The translations under genes and the position numbers were made by a program. A stretch of DNA of 46,707 nt from Flavobacteriales bacterium. Its GTDB lineage: Bacteria; Bacteroidota; Bacteroidia; UBA10329. Below the pieces are notes generated by a model that did no database searches, had not been told where the DNA came from, and saw nothing but the letters and a program-made list of their open reading frames with translations. The stretch spans positions 1 to 46,707 of the forward strand of contig JAIOYP010000030.1 of NCBI GenBank assembly GCA_021741155.1, read 5' to 3'. Positions 33,201 to 40,873 of this stretch are shown piece by piece; within the stretch, counting starts at the first letter, position 1, and each line of letters opens with the position of its first letter.

Positions 33201-34715
33201 ATGGCTGAAAAGGTTTACGACTTCGTGATTATTGGCAGCGGGCTTGGTGGCCTGCAATGTGCCTACATCTTGGCCGACCATGGTTTTAGCGTTTGCGTGC
33301 TTGAAAAGAACCAGCAGTTAGGCGGTTCGTTACAGGTTTTCAGTCGCGATAAGACGGTTTTCGATACTGGAGTTCATTATCTGCCTGCCATGGATGAAGG
33401 ACAACCCCTTCACTCCTATTTCAAATATTTTGGGCTCACCGACAGCGTGAAATGGAAGAAGATGGACAGCCATTTCGATCAAATAAGCTTTGATGATGGT
33501 TCAAAATTTCATCACGCGAGTTCTTGGAATGAATTCAAAAAGAGCTTAATCGCTGATTTTTCCAAGGAAGAAACAGCTATCAAAACGTATTCGGAAACCA
33601 TCCAGAAATTGGTAAAAACGTTTCCGCTTGATGAATTGGAATACAACGAGAAAGACCATACGGATAATGCTATTCTTGAACTCAGCGCCAAGGAATTCAT
33701 CGATGGATTGACAGAGAATGAAAAGCTGCGTGCGGTCTTGACTGGCTCCAACTTGCTTTATGCGGGTTCGGCAGAGAAATGTCCACTGTACATTCATGCC
33801 TTGGTCACGAATGGTTACGTTCAAAGCGCGTATCGTTGCGTGGATGGCGGTTCGCAATTGGCTAAGGAACTTGCCAAGCGTATCCGCGAGAAAGGTGGAG
33901 AAGTATTGAGACGGAAAAAAGTGATCGGTTTTGAGTTGGAAAACGAAGAAATCCGCACCGTAATTACGGAAGATGGCGAGTGTTATTCTGGACTCAAATT
34001 CATCAGCAATATCCAACCAAAAGTTCTGCTTCAACTCGTTGGGAAGGAACATTTCAAACTATCGTTTTACAATCGATTTCAGAAAGCTAGGAATACGCTT
34101 TCGAGTTTCACGGTTCATATCGTTTGTAAGCCGAATTCGTTCCAGTATCTGAATCACAACGTTTATCATCACACCACCAATCATGTTTGGGCCAAACCTG
34201 ATTATTCTGAAAGTGAATGGCCGCTGCAATTCATGTTGAGTACACCAGCCTCGTCAAAATCGGATGAATTTGCGGAAGGTATTTCCATCATGACCTACAT
34301 GCGATTTGATGAAGTGGAAAAATGGAAAGACAGTCACAAAACGATTGTTTCTCCAGGCGAACGACCTTCTGAATATGAAGAATTCAAAGCCGAAAAGACG
34401 GAGCAATTGCTGAAAGCGGTGGAAAAGCGTTTTCCTGAAATCCGAGATTGTATTCAAAGCATACATGCTTCTACTCCACTTACTTACCGCGATTATATTG
34501 GTAGCGATGATGGCAATATGTATGGCACGGAAAAAGATTTTCGCAAAGGAATGGCAAACTTCATTGCACCAAACACAAAAATCCCTAACCTTTGGCTCAC
34601 AGGTCAATATTTGAACTTACACGGGGTAATGGGTGTTACCATCAGTTCAATTATTACTTGCAGTCAATTTTTAGATAAGAAAAAACTACTCGAACGCATT
34701 AAAAATGCACAATGA
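33201..34715 (+). CDS. Carotenoid desaturase/isomerase-like flavoprotein
   Basis: 504-residue FAD/NAD(P) oxidoreductase of the CrtI/CrtISO superfamily. The N-terminal dinucleotide fold is VIIGSGLGGLQCAYILADHG with the acidic strand end VLEKNQQLGGSLQ. FDTGVHYL matches the family substrate-domain motif, and LWLTGQYLNLHGVMGVTISS near the C-terminus is the FAD-binding end. It probably acts on a polyene chain (desaturation or cis-trans isomerisation), in keeping with flexirubin loci. It overlaps the next gene by 4 bp (ATGA), so the two are coupled. The exact reaction cannot be read from sequence. Confidence 0.85.
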   Translation: MAEKVYDFVIIGSGLGGLQCAYILADHGFSVCVLEKNQQLGGSLQVFSRDKTVFDTGVHYLPAMDEGQPLHSYFKYFGLTDSVKWKKMDSHFDQISFDDGSKFHHASSWNEFKKSLIADFSKEETAIKTYSETIQKLVKTFPLDELEYNEKDHTDNAILELSAKEFIDGLTENEKLRAVLTGSNLLYAGSAEKCPLYIHALVTNGYVQSAYRCVDGGSQLAKELAKRIREKGGEVLRRKKVIGFELENEEIRTVITEDGECYSGLKFISNIQPKVLLQLVGKEHFKLSFYNRFQKARNTLSSFTVHIVCKPNSFQYLNHNVYHHTTNHVWAKPDYSESEWPLQFMLSTPASSKSDEFAEGISIMTYMRFDEVEKWKDSHKTIVSPGERPSEYEEFKAEKTEQLLKAVEKRFPEIRDCIQSIHASTPLTYRDYIGSDDGNMYGTEKDFRKGMANFIAPNTKIPNLWLTGQYLNLHGVMGVTISSIITCSQFLDKKKLLERIKNAQ

Positions 34716-35950
34716 AGAATATTGATGTACTAGTTATTGGAGCAGGACCATCGGGTTCGGTGGCAGCTTCGCATCTTGCAAATCAAGGTTATAAAGTCAC
34801 AATTGTTGAACGAACCAAGTTTCCGCGCTTCGTGATTGGGGAAAGTTTGCTACCTATTTCGATGGAACATTACATGGAAACAGGTTTACTTCCTGCTTTG
34901 GAAGCCAAGAACTTTGAGATAAAAGAAGGAGCACTTTTCACACGAGATGACAAGGATTTTCTCATTTCGTTTGATGACAATTTCACCCCAGGATGGACTT
35001 ACGCTTGGCAAGCTCCGCGAGATGAATTTGATAAAACCTTGGCAGATGAGACCGCGAAAAAAGGTGTTGAAATTCTCTACGAAACAACGCTTGATGGCAT
35101 TGATTTCAATGATAATGGTGCCACTTTCAGCGTAACAAACGCGAATGGAAAGACAGATTATTCAGCTCGTTTTGTGATTGATAGTAGCGGCTATGGTGGC
35201 GTTTTGGCAAAGATGTTAGAAATTCCAACGCATGTTTCGCCAACGAGCAACATGGCTACTTACACCCATTTTGTGGACGACACGCGAGATACGTTCCCCA
35301 ACCCAATGCAGATTTCGTTCGACATCCTCGAAACGGATTTGTGGTTGTGGGTTATTCCATTCAATAATGGTGTGACATCGCTAGGATTTGTGGGCAACAA
35401 GAAGTATTTCGGAGAGTTTACAGCTGAAGATGCTGATGTGAATTTGGCCTTCAATAATATGTTCAAGCGTTCGAAGAAATTCGGGGAACGATTCAAAGAC
35501 AAGACCTACAAATTCACCCCAAAGGTTCATGCCGATTACATGCGTTCTTCCGAACGTTTCTTTGGAAACAAGTACGTTTTAACTGGAAACACAACTGAAT
35601 TCTTGGACCCCGTATTCTCTTCAGGCGTTGCTTTTGCCACTACTTCTGGCTTGACAGCCGCCAAGTTGGTTGACCGCGAATTGCAGGGAGAAAAAGTGGA
35701 TTGGCAAACGGAATACGTTGAATTTTTGGAATACGGAATTGACGTATTCCGAACCTACGTTCGCGAATGGTACACAGGCGATTTGCAGAAAATCTTCTTC
35801 CATGTAAACATCAATCCATTGATGAAGAAACAGCTTACTTCTGTATTGGCTGGCTACGTTTGGGACAAAACAAACCCTTTCGTGCGTAAGCACAAAACCA
35901 TCATCAACACGCTTGCACAGGTGGTTGATATTGAAAAGATGAAAATTTGA
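34712..35950 (+). CDS. Flavin-dependent halogenase candidate
   Basis: 412-residue FAD monooxygenase-fold protein. The FAD loop is VIGAGPSGSVAASHL (8-22), followed by FPRFVIGESLLP (Glu44). Both halogenase fingerprints are present: Lys71 in FEIKEGALF, at the same number as the catalytic Lys of CmlS as I recall it, and WLWVIP at 211-216 matching the WxWxIP signature that blocks ordinary hydroxylation. DPVFSSGVAFA near residue 300 is the usual FAD/chloride-loop region. Chlorinated flexirubins are known, so chlorination of the phenyl ring is the likely role. It overlaps the desaturase-like gene by 4 bp. No flavin reductase is nearby; a shared one would serve. Confidence 0.8.
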   Translation: MKNIDVLVIGAGPSGSVAASHLANQGYKVTIVERTKFPRFVIGESLLPISMEHYMETGLLPALEAKNFEIKEGALFTRDDKDFLISFDDNFTPGWTYAWQAPRDEFDKTLADETAKKGVEILYETTLDGIDFNDNGATFSVTNANGKTDYSARFVIDSSGYGGVLAKMLEIPTHVSPTSNMATYTHFVDDTRDTFPNPMQISFDILETDLWLWVIPFNNGVTSLGFVGNKKYFGEFTAEDADVNLAFNNMFKRSKKFGERFKDKTYKFTPKVHADYMRSSERFFGNKYVLTGNTTEFLDPVFSSGVAFATTSGLTAAKLVDRELQGEKVDWQTEYVEFLEYGIDVFRTYVREWYTGDLQKIFFHVNINPLMKKQLTSVLAGYVWDKTNPFVRKHKTIINTLAQVVDIEKMKI

Positions 35951-35991
35951 GTTTCTTTGGGATTCGCTTAACTCTTAGATTCAACTAGTTA

Positions 35992-37470
35992 ATGGCAAAG
36001 ACGACTTATAGCAATCGTGAATTGATGTTATTGGCCATTAAGCAGATGAACGAAAGCATCAATGAGCCTCGTCCCGATGGAAAAGTTCCACCGAAGGTCG
36101 GTGTCGTAATTCTTTTTCCAGATGGTAGAATTGAAAAATCTTATCGCGGAGAGCTAAGAGAAGGTGACCATGCCGAATTCACCTTACTTGAAAGAAAATT
36201 AGGGAACTCCAATTTGGAGGGATGTATCCTCTTCACAACCTTAGAACCATGCGTTGAACGAAATACGCCAAAGGTTCCGTGTTGTAGAAGAACTTCAAAC
36301 GCTAGGATCAAAAAAGTGTTTGTTGGAATTGAGGATAAAGACCCTACGGTTGATGGCAAAGGCATTAAACACTTGCAAAACGCAGGGATTGAGGTAAAAA
36401 TGTTCGATAGAGACCTTCAACGAATTATTGAAAAGGAGAATAAGCGTTTTTTGGAGCAAGCACTTGAAAGGAAAAAGGAGACGGAGAAAGAAGACCTACG
36501 TATTGACCTGGAACGTGCGGTTTCAACCTTTGACATTTCAAAACTCTCGGAGGATGCCCTTAATAAGTTTATCCTTGAAGCAAATCTTGACCACCATGCC
36601 TCAGATATTGATTTCCATAAATACTTAGCCGACTTCGGTGCGCTGGAATTTGACAGGGAAAGCGGAATTTTTCGTCCAACTGGATTTGGAATTTTGTTGT
36701 TCGGAAAAAATCCAAGGGCAAAATATCCACAAGCAGTTCTGAAAGCGCAGATTGATTATGGGGCAGGTAAAGTTGAACCCATGGATTTTGATGGACCTTT
36801 GGTAATGGTTCCTGATAGAATTGAAGGTTGGCTCAGAAAAGTTCTTCCACATTCAAAAAACACAAGCAGTTTTAAACGAAGGGATGTACCTGATTTCCCG
36901 ATTGAAGTACTTCGTGAAGCAATAATCAATGCACTGGTACACCGTGACTACGAAATTCCATCGGCCAAATGTGAATTGAAGATTACTGCGGATACTGTGA
37001 CCATAAATAGCCCTGGGGCCCCTTTACCCGCTATTTCCATTGAGGAACTCAATTCCTTCGAAGCATCTTCACTAAGTAGAAATCCTATTCTAACATATGT
37101 GTTCAACAAAATGGAATATGTGGAAGAAAAGGGATTTGGTATGGATACTTTCAGGGATATTGAGAGGGACTTTGGATTACCTATTCCAAGGTATGTCTAT
37201 AAAGCTCCTTTCTTGACTTTGAAGTTTGCAAGAACCACAAAAGGACTTGAGAATCTTATTGACAATAAGGCAATCAAAGGCTTAAATGCTGATGACCTGA
37301 ATGTATTTGAAATCATACGAAGCAGAGGCCCAATCAGTAAATCTTCCATAGTTGAGATGGTCAATTTGACTCCGAGAACTACCGAAAGACTACTTAAGAA
37401 ACTGGTTGATAAAAGCCTGATTATGGTTGAAGGTTCTGGAAGAAGTACAAAGTATCGTCTGAATGATTGA
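35992..37470 (+). CDS. RibD-like deaminase / RecG-type ATPase / winged-helix fusion
   Basis: 492 residues, an unusual three-part protein. (1) Residues 1-140 form a zinc deaminase domain close to the RibD deaminase: HAE at 60-62, TLEPC ending at Cys87, VPCC with Cys97, then DPTVDGKGIKHLQNAGIEV. (2) After a charged helical linker (145-175), residues 180-415 match the HATPase_c_4 region of RecG-C-terminal/Schlafen-type regulators: FRPTGFGILLFGKNP, REAIINALVHRDYE (Glu309, Asn313), INSPGAPLP and EKGFGMD. (3) 430-490 is a winged helix (GPISKSSIVEMVNLTPRTTE). No reductase domain exists, so it is not RibD. It sits 41 bp after the halogenase gene among pigment genes and is followed by paired direct repeats. 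It may be a nucleotide-sensing regulator or defence protein. Confidence 0.82.
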   Translation: MAKTTYSNRELMLLAIKQMNESINEPRPDGKVPPKVGVVILFPDGRIEKSYRGELREGDHAEFTLLERKLGNSNLEGCILFTTLEPCVERNTPKVPCCRRTSNARIKKVFVGIEDKDPTVDGKGIKHLQNAGIEVKMFDRDLQRIIEKENKRFLEQALERKKETEKEDLRIDLERAVSTFDISKLSEDALNKFILEANLDHHASDIDFHKYLADFGALEFDRESGIFRPTGFGILLFGKNPRAKYPQAVLKAQIDYGAGKVEPMDFDGPLVMVPDRIEGWLRKVLPHSKNTSSFKRRDVPDFPIEVLREAIINALVHRDYEIPSAKCELKITADTVTINSPGAPLPAISIEELNSFEASSLSRNPILTYVFNKMEYVEEKGFGMDTFRDIERDFGLPIPRYVYKAPFLTLKFARTTKGLENLIDNKAIKGLNADDLNVFEIIRSRGPISKSSIVEMVNLTPRTTERLLKKLVDKSLIMVEGSGRSTKYRLND

Positions 37471-37478
37471 CAAAGACT

Positions 37479-37566
37479 TCGCCATATGCTTGCCAATTTG
37501 GCGGGTGTTGTCCGTTTCGGATGGTCACTTTTTGAAATCTCGCCACATACTCGCCATTTTGGCGAG
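37479..37566 (+). repeat. Two 27-bp direct repeats downstream of the deaminase fusion
   Basis: 37479-37505 (TCGCCATATGC ... TTTGGCGGG) and 37540-37566 (TCGCCACATAC ... TTTGGCGAG) agree at 22 of 27 positions, starting 61 bp apart. Each contains two YGCCA half-sites followed by an inverted TGGCG. They occupy most of the 113-bp gap before the next flavoprotein gene and look like regulator sites or element ends. Confidence 0.65.
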
Positions 37567-37583
37567 AAACTTACGTCAATTCT

Positions 37584-39284
37584 ATGCGGAATAAACCCAT
37601 CAAACCATCCTATGATGTCATCGTTATCGGTGCAGGCATCAGCGGGCTAACCTCAGCTGCCCTACTCAGCCGTGCTGGACTTTCCGTTGGCGTTTTTGAA
37701 ATGGACAGTCGCCCAGGTGGTTACTTGGCTGGTTTCAAGAGAAAGGATTTTCGCTTTGATAGCGCCATACATTGGCTCAATCAGTGCGGACCAAAAGGAT
37801 TGGTAACGCGCGTTTTTGATTTTATCGGAAGTGATCATCCAATAGCTTTATCTCAACCAAATATCAAGCGGTATCAAGGAGATAATTACGATTATCTACT
37901 CACAGATAAACCTGATGATCTGAAAGCTGAATTCATCCAACTTTTTCCGCACGAAAAGGATGGAATTGAACGCTTTTTCAAGGATGCAAAGCAATTGGGC
38001 TCAGCATTTAATGATTTACCTGCTTTTTCAAGATCATTGGAAACGATGGGTTTCTTTGAGAAGATTGCCTTCAATATGAAGCGTCTGAAGTTTGCGCTTG
38101 TTTTTCTAAAGCACATTCGTTTTACGGGGCCAGAAGGAACAGTAAAAGGACTGCAGCGCTATTTCAAGGATCCTGCCATGCTAAAGATCTTCGGTTCGGA
38201 GGAAGAATTACTTTCCTGTTTGGTTCCGATTGGATGGGCGTATTATGGCGATTATCAAAGTCCACCAAAAGGTGGCAGTCAGGCGTTTCCTGAATGGTTG
38301 GATTACACGATTGAAAAGATGGGCAACGATGTCTATTATCAATGTCGCGTGGAGAAAATTGAACTCGAAAACAGTCAAGCCGTTGGCATTCAATTAGACC
38401 GAAAAGGAGAGAAATTCAGCGTCAAGGCCAAGCAGATTATTGCAGCATGCGATGTAGAAGCTTTATACGAACGTATGCTTCCTGAAACCGCCATCCCGAA
38501 GGAAGTAAAAGACAAGCTGCATAACGCACAGTTGTATAGCTCGGCTGTGACCATTTCGCTTGGCATTGATTGTCCAGTTGAAGATTTAGGCTTGGATGAC
38601 GCCATGCTTTTCATTGTGCGCGATGATGTGAAACGTACCGAACACAACACGGGCAATCCGCACAAATGTGGCATCAGTATTCTGGCTCCTTCTTTCCGCG
38701 ATAAATCTTTGGCTCCCGAAGGAAAAGGCACCATGACCATCTATTGCTACGCCACTTTTAATCAGGATGACAAGTGGAAAACGGAGGTTGATGAGAACGG
38801 AAAACTCATCCGGGGCGAGGCTTACAAGAAATTCAAACAGGAATTTGCGGATGTGCTCATCTCACGTGTGGAGAAAAAACTGGGCAAGGATATCCGTTCA
38901 CACATTGAATATTGCGACATCGCAACGCCTATTACGCATTGGCGTTACACAGGCAACCGCGATGGAAGTTTGATGGGCGCACGCCCCGGAAAAGCGAACA
39001 TGAAAGCTGGAATTGCTGGTCATAGAACGGCTGTAAAAAACCTTTGGCTTGGTGGACATTGGGCCGAATTGGGCGGTGGTGTTCCTGTGGCGGTTAAATC
39101 AGGAATGAATGCAGCACTTTTAGTCATCAAAGAACTGAAACCGAAGGTTTACAAAGTTCTTTCTCAATACGTTGATACGAACATTACGAAGGAAGAAGCG
39201 GATAAATCGGGCGTTTTCACGGAGTATGATAATTCCTGGGTTCAGGAAATGACGCCAGCAGAAAAGAAAAGGAACATTTTATAG
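37584..39284 (+). CDS. Carotenoid isomerase/desaturase-like flavoprotein (CrtISO type)
   Basis: 566-residue FAD oxidoreductase of the phytoene desaturase / CrtISO / retinol saturase group. The N-terminus is DVIVIGAGISGLTSAALLSR followed by FEMDSRPGGYLAGFKRKDF, then FDSAIHWLNQCG. The C-terminal FAD-binding end is NLWLGGHWAELGGGVPVAVK. It is a distant paralogue of the protein at 33201-34715. The 566 residues are longer than bacterial CrtI (about 500) because of an extended C-terminal tail after residue 530. It likely acts on the pigment polyene or on a carotenoid. Its last codons and TAG stop coincide with the end of a GCCACAGA repeat, so the C-terminus may have been reshaped by that insertion. 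Confidence 0.87.
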   Translation: MRNKPIKPSYDVIVIGAGISGLTSAALLSRAGLSVGVFEMDSRPGGYLAGFKRKDFRFDSAIHWLNQCGPKGLVTRVFDFIGSDHPIALSQPNIKRYQGDNYDYLLTDKPDDLKAEFIQLFPHEKDGIERFFKDAKQLGSAFNDLPAFSRSLETMGFFEKIAFNMKRLKFALVFLKHIRFTGPEGTVKGLQRYFKDPAMLKIFGSEEELLSCLVPIGWAYYGDYQSPPKGGSQAFPEWLDYTIEKMGNDVYYQCRVEKIELENSQAVGIQLDRKGEKFSVKAKQIIAACDVEALYERMLPETAIPKEVKDKLHNAQLYSSAVTISLGIDCPVEDLGLDDAMLFIVRDDVKRTEHNTGNPHKCGISILAPSFRDKSLAPEGKGTMTIYCYATFNQDDKWKTEVDENGKLIRGEAYKKFKQEFADVLISRVEKKLGKDIRSHIEYCDIATPITHWRYTGNRDGSLMGARPGKANMKAGIAGHRTAVKNLWLGGHWAELGGGVPVAVKSGMNAALLVIKELKPKVYKVLSQYVDTNITKEEADKSGVFTEYDNSWVQEMTPAEKKRNIL

Positions 39285-39385
39285 CCACAGATGCACAGAT
39301 TAACATAGATTTTTTTCACAGATAAAAGCAAATCATCAATGTTTCATCTGAGAAAATCAGTGAATCTGTGGCTAAAAGTATGTTT
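39275..39385. repeat. GCCACAGA palindromic repeat, copy 4
   Basis: AGCCACAGATGCACAGATT (from 39283) is mirrored by AATCAGTGAATCTGTGGCT (to 39373). Outer ends ACATTTTAT and AGTATGTTTT agree with other copies. The stop codon TAG of the upstream gene is inside the left end. It separates two flavoprotein genes. Confidence 0.78.
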
Positions 39386-39406
39386 TAACCCATCCTCTAA
39401 ATAAGT

Positions 39407-40873
39407 ATGAACGAACTACCATCAAAAGTTGACATTGTAGTTATAGGAACTGGTTTTGCTGGCGTTTGCATGGGTATTCAGCTCCTCAAAAACGGTTTTA
39501 CGGATTTCGTCATTCTCGAACGGGCCAACGATGTAGGCGGAACGTGGCGCGACAACACCTATCCTGGGGCTGCTTGCGATGTGCATTCTCCTCTCTATTC
39601 TTTCTCATTTGAGCCAAATCCAAACTGGAGTCGCATGTTTTCGGGCCACAAGGAGATTTACGATTACACGTGGCATTGCGTGCGGAAATACGGTTTGGAG
39701 AAATACATCCGTTTTGAGCGTTCCATTTTGGGGGGTGATTATGATGCTGCCAAAGCAGAATGGACCATCAACCTAGCCGATGGCAGCAGCATTTTGTGCA
39801 ACAAATGGATTAACGGCATGGGTCCGCTCAATCGACCTGTATTTCCAAATTTGGAAGGACTAACGGAGTTTGAAGGCACGTCTTTTCACTCATCAGAATG
39901 GAATCACGCTTACGATTTAAGCGATAAGAAGGTAGCTGTGATTGGTACGGGTGCGAGTGCAATTCAGATTGTCCCAAGCATTGCCAAAAAGGTGAAGGAA
40001 CTCACCCTCTTTCAACGAACGGCAGCATGGATTATTAGTAAACCAGACCGTAAGATGACAGAGACGGAGAAATGGCTTTTTAAGCACGTTCCGTTCATTC
40101 AGAAACTCTATCGCTGGCGCGTGTATTGGCAAAATGAGGTAACGGCCATTGTGCTGGTTTACCGTCCGCATTTGGCAAGAGTTATTCAAGGACTAGGCAT
40201 CAAACAACTGCACAAAGGCATTAAGAGTAAAACACTGCGGCAGAAACTCAAGCCCAATTACAGCATGGGTTGCAAGCGTATTTTGCCTTCAAACCACTTC
40301 TACCCCGCTTTAGAACGCTCAAATGTTCACCTGAATACCGATGGCATTCTGCGCATATCAGAAAACGGAATTGTAGACAAGGGCGGACGAGAAACCAAGG
40401 TCGATTGCATCATTTACGCCACTGGTTTTGAGGCGGCAGATTTCCCCGCGTGGTTCAAGGTTTCGGGCAATAAAGGCCAGCAGTTGATGGATGTTTGGAA
40501 GGACGGCCCCGAAGCGTACTTGGGCACAACCGTAAGCGGTTTCCCAAACATGTTCATGCTCATTGGCCCCAACACAGGATTGGGCCACACCAGCATGACC
40601 ATTATGATTGAAGCATCTGTTCAATACACCATTTCGTGCTTAAAAGCGCTGCGCGATAAGAACGCCAAAAGCATGGATGTGAAGCCCGAAGTGCAGGCGG
40701 CATTCAATACCGATATTCAGAAGAAACTGGCAAAAACCGTGTGGATGACGGGCGGTTGCAAGAGTTGGTACATCTCTAAAACGGGAAAAAACACCTCGCT
40801 TTGGCCGGGGTTTACCTTCAGTTATATCAATAGAACGAAGAAGGTGAAGACGGAGGAATATATATTGGAGTAG
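39407..40873 (+). CDS. Baeyer-Villiger-type flavin monooxygenase
   Basis: 488 residues. Two dinucleotide loops flank the family fingerprint: GTGFAGVCMG for FAD near residue 14 and GTGASAIQIV for NADPH near 182. Between them is FEGTSFHSSEWNH, which fits FxGxxxHxxxW of Baeyer-Villiger monooxygenases but has Asn where Pro or Asp is usual. GGTWRDNTYPGAACDV is also typical of the class. It could insert oxygen next to a ketone or act as an S/N-oxygenase. It ends the run of pigment-associated flavoproteins; whether it acts on the pigment is unproven. It lies about 120 bp after the CrtISO-like gene, separated by a repeat. Confidence 0.87.
   Translation: MNELPSKVDIVVIGTGFAGVCMGIQLLKNGFTDFVILERANDVGGTWRDNTYPGAACDVHSPLYSFSFEPNPNWSRMFSGHKEIYDYTWHCVRKYGLEKYIRFERSILGGDYDAAKAEWTINLADGSSILCNKWINGMGPLNRPVFPNLEGLTEFEGTSFHSSEWNHAYDLSDKKVAVIGTGASAIQIVPSIAKKVKELTLFQRTAAWIISKPDRKMTETEKWLFKHVPFIQKLYRWRVYWQNEVTAIVLVYRPHLARVIQGLGIKQLHKGIKSKTLRQKLKPNYSMGCKRILPSNHFYPALERSNVHLNTDGILRISENGIVDKGGRETKVDCIIYATGFEAADFPAWFKVSGNKGQQLMDVWKDGPEAYLGTTVSGFPNMFMLIGPNTGLGHTSMTIMIEASVQYTISCLKALRDKNAKSMDVKPEVQAAFNTDIQKKLAKTVWMTGGCKSWYISKTGKNTSLWPGFTFSYINRTKKVKTEEYILE

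Follow-up and report, generated by a model that had tools for sequence, protein, structure and literature searches.

The window, by which we mean the whole 46,707-nucleotide stretch of Flavobacteriales DNA analysed here, carries on its + strand a gene for a 492-aa protein (35992..37470) in which a zinc deaminase is followed by a minimal GHKL ATPase and a C-terminal winged helix. The gene was taken from the list of open reading frames, and 80 relatives align with it over almost its full length. As judged from its sequence, this protein, a deaminase set on the C-terminal chassis of a known type of defence protein, is probably an unrecognised anti-phage factor. Its half-site array, which adjoins the gene, varies with the winged helix of the protein, and some relatives lie among restriction-modification (RM) genes.

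Domains of the protein and their nearest relatives

The deaminase domain was placed at residues 1-160 (35992..36471, + strand) by matches to Pfam, NCBIfam, PDB and Foldseek entries and by conservation in 76 of 76 aligned family members. PF00383 covers residues 9-112 (E 2.8e-9) and the RibD model TIGR00326 matches residues 34-156 (E 1.8e-18). The zinc site of the deaminase superfamily (H-A-E and P-C-x(n)-C), set in a deaminase fold, is present in the family. An earlier note, made from the sequence alone, had read this site as HAE 60-62 and C87, which the alignment bears out, since H60, E62 and C87 are kept in all 76 rows, so that the zinc pocket on which that reading depended is retained. Of the cysteines that it had read as PCC at 96-98, C97 is the one conserved in 76 of 76, and K94 never varies either. 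HGE replaces HAE in one relative of the 76 (L107) and an in-frame stop was found in one relative (L048, which is G411).

The ATPase occupies residues 295-415 (36874..37236, + strand), with a HATPase_c_4 match over residues 326-409 (Pfam E 1.5e-13, 51 bits against a cut-off of 26). E309 and N313, both named in the earlier note's correct reading of this region, never vary in the 76-row alignment, nor do H317, R318, G342, R363, N364, E378 and G383. The label of a RecG-type ATPase has to be dropped: HATPase_c_4 is a GHKL-type ATPase, not a helicase, and RecG is only a Pfam nickname. In an AlphaFold2 model made with the 76 aligned members, the individual domains are well modelled and their mutual placement is not, because the mean pLDDT is 88.5 but the pTM is 0.63. 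The structure at the top of the Foldseek list was DIP2311 of C. diphtheriae (3lmm, E 6.3e-14), which supports the ATPase assignment, and RibG/RibD structures came next, with B. subtilis RibG (2b3z) at E 1.7e-9; dCMP deaminase and APOBEC3 structures stood further down. The winged helix (residues 428-492, 37273..37467, + strand) had also been proposed before, and it was recovered in the model, with helices 450-457 and 461-473 and strands 477-480 and 487-490, but it is weak by sequence, no HTH model of Pfam being above its cut-off in the protein. Its recognition helix is 461-473 (37372-37410), and its assignment is further supported by the co-variation with the array half-sites described below.

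The protein shares with RibD/RibG the deaminase fold and the HAE..PC..C zinc site, but it differs from them in several respects. The score against TIGR00326 was 66.9 bits, far under the cut-off of 156.35, and no reductase half was matched in the protein with Pfam or NCBIfam, as the earlier note had said. All 14 of the 14 RibD comparators carry both PNP and G[KR]TPPC, whereas TPPC is found in 0 of 76 family members and an asparagine at the place of PNP in 6 of 76. All family members have instead a loop of the form C..R/H-x-x-P/G-K-x-x-C, which in the window protein is C87-x-x-R90-x-x-P93-K94-x-x-C97. RibD split from the rest of the deaminase tree with a support of 100/99, in a tree where three deaminases of other architectures stand on long branches and have an uncertain placement. 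The genome of the window has a separate RibD (an open frame of 356 aa, at C7). A riboflavin gene was rejected on these grounds, and the 492-aa protein is a member of a conserved family separate from RibD. RibD acts on a free phosphoribosyl pyrimidine, and by analogy the family loop, with its lysine and its arginine, hints at a substrate that bears a phosphate for the presumed deaminase activity.

The C-terminal part of the protein has other relatives. A profile of the family was compared with a profile of 20 HATPase_c_4 relatives (20 of 21 chassis open reading frames, L012 being excluded as a dubious pick and L025 and L030 being partial), and the two matched over residues 174-492 (313 columns, E 4.5e-53). 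This match includes the middle segment (residues 174-294, 36511..36873, + strand), which is common to SLFN_AlbA_2-HATPase_c_4 proteins. SLFN_AlbA_2 was found on 14 of these 20 relatives and DUF4062 on 4 of 20; PF04326 (SLFN_AlbA_2) had no Pfam match in the window protein. By profile comparison, residues 174-492 are thus the chassis of bacterial Schlafen (SLFN_AlbA_2) proteins, in which a deaminase appears to have been swapped in as effector. DUF4062 would be a third type of effector on this platform (which four proteins carry it was assigned by eye), and the proteins of L020-L023 have the same chassis with N-termini similar to one another.

Excerpts of PMC12839542 (NAR 2026) describe fusions of Schlafen RNases with a minimal histidine kinase and a wHTH across BREX-type loci, and count Schlafens among backup suicidal effectors. 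Compared with these Schlafen-GHKL-wHTH proteins (PF04326 + PF13749), as those excerpts present them, the window family has the same C-terminal chassis and a like association with restriction-type systems, but a zinc deaminase where they have a Schlafen RNase at the N-terminus. A full-text search of mainly open-access literature, in whose scope an earlier mention may have been missed, found no description of the deaminase version of the chassis. The earlier note had offered the gene as a candidate for an undescribed system, and this stands for the effector swap and for the DNA array that tracks the winged helix, which are new; the Schlafen-GHKL-wHTH chassis was already known.

Spread of the family, insertion in the window and neighbouring genes

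A scan of one genome per species gave 271 relatives, the best 80 of which, near full-length matches with 40-66% identity, formed the analysed set. By record titles, these 80 come from many bacterial phyla and from two archaea (Methanolobus). The open reading frames of the relatives were picked by a simple script, and one set of family sequences, restricted to a length of 460-530, covered 75 of the 80 loci. Among 395 Bacteroidota genomes, near full-length members were found in eight, the window's own and seven others at 40-44% identity; most other matches listed there cover the ATPase half only. A phage or plasmid gene was rejected, as no place covering 80% of the 492-aa protein was found in 72,556 plasmid and 50,697 phage records. 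A first viral scan with the 492-aa protein found nothing, and a second gave three weak or partial relatives, of the deaminase part only. Related deaminase domains also occur in other architectures (L112:4282-5316, L113:9983-10876 and L029:1426-2655), two of them on viral contigs.

The gene of the window lies in an inserted segment of about 35951..37583 (no strand assigned), delimited by gene order and by blastn in L138-L142. In these five congeners the preceding halogenase-like (flavin) gene and the following desaturase-like gene are adjacent, only 11-14 bp separate the aligned ends of their coding regions, and the family gene is absent; no full-length member was found in the eight congeners. 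The insertion between halogenase and desaturase genes that had been suggested earlier is thus confirmed as a one-gene segment. The GC3 of the gene is 0.355, against 0.44-0.54 for its neighbours. The pigment locus of the earlier note survives as a run of flavin enzymes around the gene, but only as an incidental landing place. This run (33201-40873) comprises two CrtI/CrtISO-like genes, a halogenase/geranylgeranyl-reductase-like gene and an FMO-like gene and looks like a pigment or lipid pathway, though none of its enzymes was above a curated cut-off among the 25 best NCBIfam models listed. An attC-like cassette site was also weighed for this one-gene segment, but a general system of cassettes is improbable, the array model being rare in 198 Bacteroidota genomes, in a search of limited reach that missed the window's own weak array.

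HsdM, HsdS, HsdR or type IIG-like genes were found in 30 of the 80 loci, all on the strand of the gene, with HMMs built from the same neighbours; in the other 50 no modelled RM gene was detected with these HMMs in the available flanks, many of which are short. We named 104 same-strand neighbours of the 106 chosen, a fragment of the gene itself and an open reading frame with X being excluded, and Pfam gave 13 HSDR_N, 6 Methylase_S and 3 Eco57I matches among them. The PADLOC model PDLC03040 (type I restriction enzyme) was matched by 12 of the 104. In 9 of the 50 genomes (of the 80) that were counted genome-wide, HSDR_N was found no more than 10 kb from the gene, against 0.48 expected (99 matches, 197 Mb). 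The gene lies inside an hsdM-hsdS-X-hsdR order in L036, L040 and L167 (by eye), and in L096 with extra genes between. In L167, from a genome of the same class (G460), the order is hsdM, hsdS, gene, array and hsdR, with a McrB-like gene farther on (names by eye). The family is therefore linked to RM in part of its members.

RM is not obligatory, because 50 of the 80 loci have no detected RM gene and the genome of the window (94.7% complete) has no N6_Mtase match; for this last reason the window gene is taken to stand without a type I RM system. Other neighbours were a ResIII helicase and N6_N4 methylase pair (L057), EndoU (L046), macro (L035), GmrSD (L110) and a SLFN_AlbA_2-HATPase_c_4 gene (L058). 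In L066 and L098, Piwi-domain genes lie immediately 3' of the family gene, and L067 joins them by cluster membership. In L048, L050, L051, L052 and L005, a small DprA-like gene stands after the family gene with its array, a call made by cluster for the group, with the Pfam score of L050 slightly below gathering and L005 assigned by eye. The commonest neighbour families are those of RM and others: no riboflavin family, the context that the earlier note had named as counting against it, is among the 25 commonest Pfam families of the 104 neighbours, beyond which lie 81 further families. The context of the relatives, with RM genes in 30 of 80 loci, points in the direction of defence that the note had taken, and its interpretation is in part supported, by the separate family, the insertion and this context.

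The array beside the gene and its relation to the winged helix

The array of the window (37477..37567, + strand), which is absent from the earlier note, lies directly after the stop codon and has two elements 61 bp apart, a strict one (37538-37567) and a weaker copy (37479-37503), identified by repeats, by a specific scan and by the covariance model R1 (E 8.7e-4). Each element consists of a half-site, 3-4 nt, a second half-site, 3 nt and an inverted half-site, and measures 31 nt in its commonest form; the period is mostly 61-63 nt. One of the two window elements passes the strict scan. The half-site pattern of the window array was found nowhere else in its own genome or in eight congeners when up to 2 mismatches were allowed.

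With the strict scan, 60 of the 80 loci have an element in the 400 nt that follow the stop; 88 elements are on the strand of the gene (2 of which belong to an unrelated common repeat) and 6 on the opposite strand. Elsewhere in the same loci the scan found 23 in 1,163,107 bases, of which 8 belong to that common repeat and three lie upstream of the gene, at most 500 nt away, in L054 and L061; one shuffled set gave 2. A looser scan of elements was discarded, as it scored 190 of 388 control regions against 78 of 80 targets. Model R1 was built from 13 of 14 equal-length two-element arrays, without L100 (a near-copy of L093), and it matched beside the gene in 71 of the 80 loci at E up to 0.01. With L055, L081, L096 and L101, found by the strict scan only, an array adjoins the gene in 75 of 80 loci; it is 3' of the gene in most and upstream of it in L054 and L088. 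This compares with a match to the geometry within 400 nt of the stop in 2 of 20 chassis relatives, one of them A-rich and chance-like and the other a single copy with another half-site (L019).

In 198 Bacteroidota genomes R1 matched beside two family genes only, plus one weak partial match, with stricter filters that missed the weak array of the window itself. In 50 gene-carrying genomes, 64 of the 68 model matches lie within about 600 nt of the gene, in 36 of the 50; the other four are one simple tandem repeat, one at the end of another GHKL-wHTH open reading frame, which adjoins a PglZ-like gene (by eye), and two beside other genes. The array is thus strongly tied to the gene, but in view of these matches away from the gene and beside chassis relatives its kind is not strictly confined to it. 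At L301:2098-2877, a HATPase_c_4 and wHTH open reading frame has an element at its end and stands beside a PglZ-like gene (by eye), so that the array may belong to a part of the chassis family and not to the deaminase branch alone. The single direct-direct-inverted element of L019 (2131-2160) lies 37 nt beyond the stop codon of a HATPase_c_4 chassis gene.

The same geometry was also seen on viral contigs (L184, L200, L258 and others) directly after ribonucleotide reductase genes (names by eye). Among the viral matches listed, a T run follows 62 of 128 pattern matches, and 52 of 89 upstream open reading frames belong to one cluster. These viral elements could be truly related to the array, or could serve a single phage lineage as terminators. 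For the array itself an intrinsic terminator was rejected, since a T run follows only 2 of the 88 strict elements of the + strand. No known RNA family was above its gathering score in Rfam over 35700-37800 of the window; Rfam gave three matches up to E 1 in five loci, of which one was above its gathering score (L035) and none lay at the array.

The sequence of the half-sites is more alike within a locus than between loci, differing by at most 1 base in 33 of 48 pairs within a locus against 18.5% of the pairs between loci. Mixed types are nonetheless found in some arrays, for example in L043, L053, L063, L072, L078 and L091. In 59 of the 76 sequences, those with a scored element, the half-site distances correlated at 0.463 with the wHTH (Mantel) and at 0.233 with the deaminase. 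The partial correlation was 0.412 for the wHTH given the deaminase and 0.032 for the deaminase given the wHTH. The half-sites vary with the winged helix more closely than with the deaminase, in tests whose correction for descent is partial.

When the best element of each sequence was compared with 442 protein columns, the nine best columns for half-site positions 6-7 were all in the wHTH, and residue 466 of the recognition helix came first. With N466 (n = 8), positions 6-7 are CC in 7 and CA in 1, and 7 of 8 have GCCA; with L466 (n = 2), both have CA and GCAA. K462 goes with AC and GACA in 15 of 15, and all 35 AC half-sites go with R466. On a tree made without the wHTH, well-supported branches account for at least 9 changes of the AC type. 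At positions 3-4 the wHTH was not singled out (4 of the top 15 columns), and L078 and L085 have the same helix with different best half-sites. The match of half-site to recognition helix has the look of a readable code.

Proposed mode of action and alternatives

We hold it somewhat more probable than otherwise that the gene is a one-gene accessory defence factor, often linked to RM, with a deaminase effector, a GHKL switch and a wHTH seated on its own array. The N-terminal zinc deaminase would be the effector and the GHKL domain an ATP-dependent switch, and the C-terminal winged helix would bind the array adjoining the gene and so hold the protein, set its dose, or both. In many hosts the factor would be embedded in type I or other RM operons as a second line. 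Phage infection, or the failure of the partner system, would disturb the complex, and the deaminase thus released or activated would deaminate a phosphorylated pyrimidine (or nucleic acid), by which the infected cell would be starved or stopped. Counting against this reading is the 3' position of the array in most loci, which is unusual for an autoregulatory operator. So do the 50 loci with no RM gene detected, the negative result in the plasmid and phage records, the weakness of the window's own array, the arrays of mixed half-site type and the occurrence of this kind of array beyond the family.

Two known systems offer analogies of mechanism, though not of membership. AvcD/DcdV reportedly carries a fused P-loop domain, whereas the family has another ATPase fold and no P-loop family was among the Pfam matches of the 492-aa protein. 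According to the abstract of PMC10511110, AvcD/DcdV is a deoxycytidylate deaminase toxin with the RNA antitoxin AvcI. As in the window family, a deaminase is joined there to a nucleotide-binding domain, and its use against phage is demonstrated; AvcD/DcdV is controlled by RNA and is not known to have a DNA-binding domain. The depletion of nucleotides that the window family might cause may be likened to that by AvcD. PrrC is, according to extracts of PMC12707154, the guard of the type I RM system in EcoprrI, and some family genes are similarly embedded in a type I RM operon, where a guard or second line is proposed. PrrC is an anticodon nuclease, the effector of the family is a deaminase, and the two are likened by context alone, so that guarding of RM by the family is again an analogy.

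A tethered immune enzyme is possible but unlikely: the protein would sit inactive on its co-evolving array, which would act as a tripwire, and the deaminase would be freed when a phage caused host DNA to be lost, occluded or modified, or when the neighbouring RM enzyme failed, on a platform with exchangeable effectors. It is also unlikely that the protein is a transcription regulator of linked restriction genes, in which the wHTH on the array would govern the expression of hsdR or of its own gene, with the deaminase domain as the sensor of a nucleotide. The array does lie between the gene and hsdR in the RM loci L093, L096 and L111, and the co-variation of wHTH and array would be expected of such a regulator, but the invariant catalytic residues exceed the needs of a pure sensor and the array is also present where RM was undetected, including the window.

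That the deaminase acts on phage DNA or RNA in the manner of APOBEC or MafB19, and not on free nucleotides, is distinctly unlikely. The better matches in sequence and in fold are to RibD, whose substrate is a free phosphoribosyl pyrimidine; on the other side, Pfam Inv-AAD is above its cut-off in the protein (MafB19-deam is below), APOBEC3 structures appear lower in the Foldseek list and a DNA-binding-type domain is on the same chain.

It is very unlikely that the array is transcribed into an RNA by which the deaminase is kept in check, in the manner of AvcID and other type III toxin-antitoxin systems. Pairing within the elements does co-vary strongly, with 26 two-sided changes against 6.6 when shuffled, and the array is mostly on the coding strand and directly after the stop. 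Of 119 elements, 57 show the better pairing between the outer and the inverted half-site and 8 between the middle and the inverted one, with 54 ties. G-T is not clearly in excess among the mispairs (22 G-T, 18 A-C and 23 other). A period of 61-63 nt agrees with the helical phasing of DNA, the half-sites follow the wHTH and no Rfam match lay at the array in the loci searched. The array is a constrained palindrome, closer in character to DNA than to RNA. A housekeeping or repair deaminase (riboflavin-like or clearing damaged nucleotides) that became mobile by chance is highly improbable, since its RibD-like domain is set against the patchy spread in 8 of 395 genomes of the phylum, the clade apart from RibD with a separate RibD in the same genome, and the linkage to RM.

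With the accessory defence factor as the preferred reading, the effectors of a widespread defence chassis would gain a deaminase, which occurs across many phyla of bacteria as well as in archaea and partly inside RM operons, the best-known immune operons of bacteria. If the tethered enzyme were true, one chassis would serve exchangeable effectors, namely a Schlafen RNase, DUF4062 and a deaminase. The array gives a concrete and testable handle on the control of GHKL-wHTH proteins, for which no explanation was found in the literature covered.
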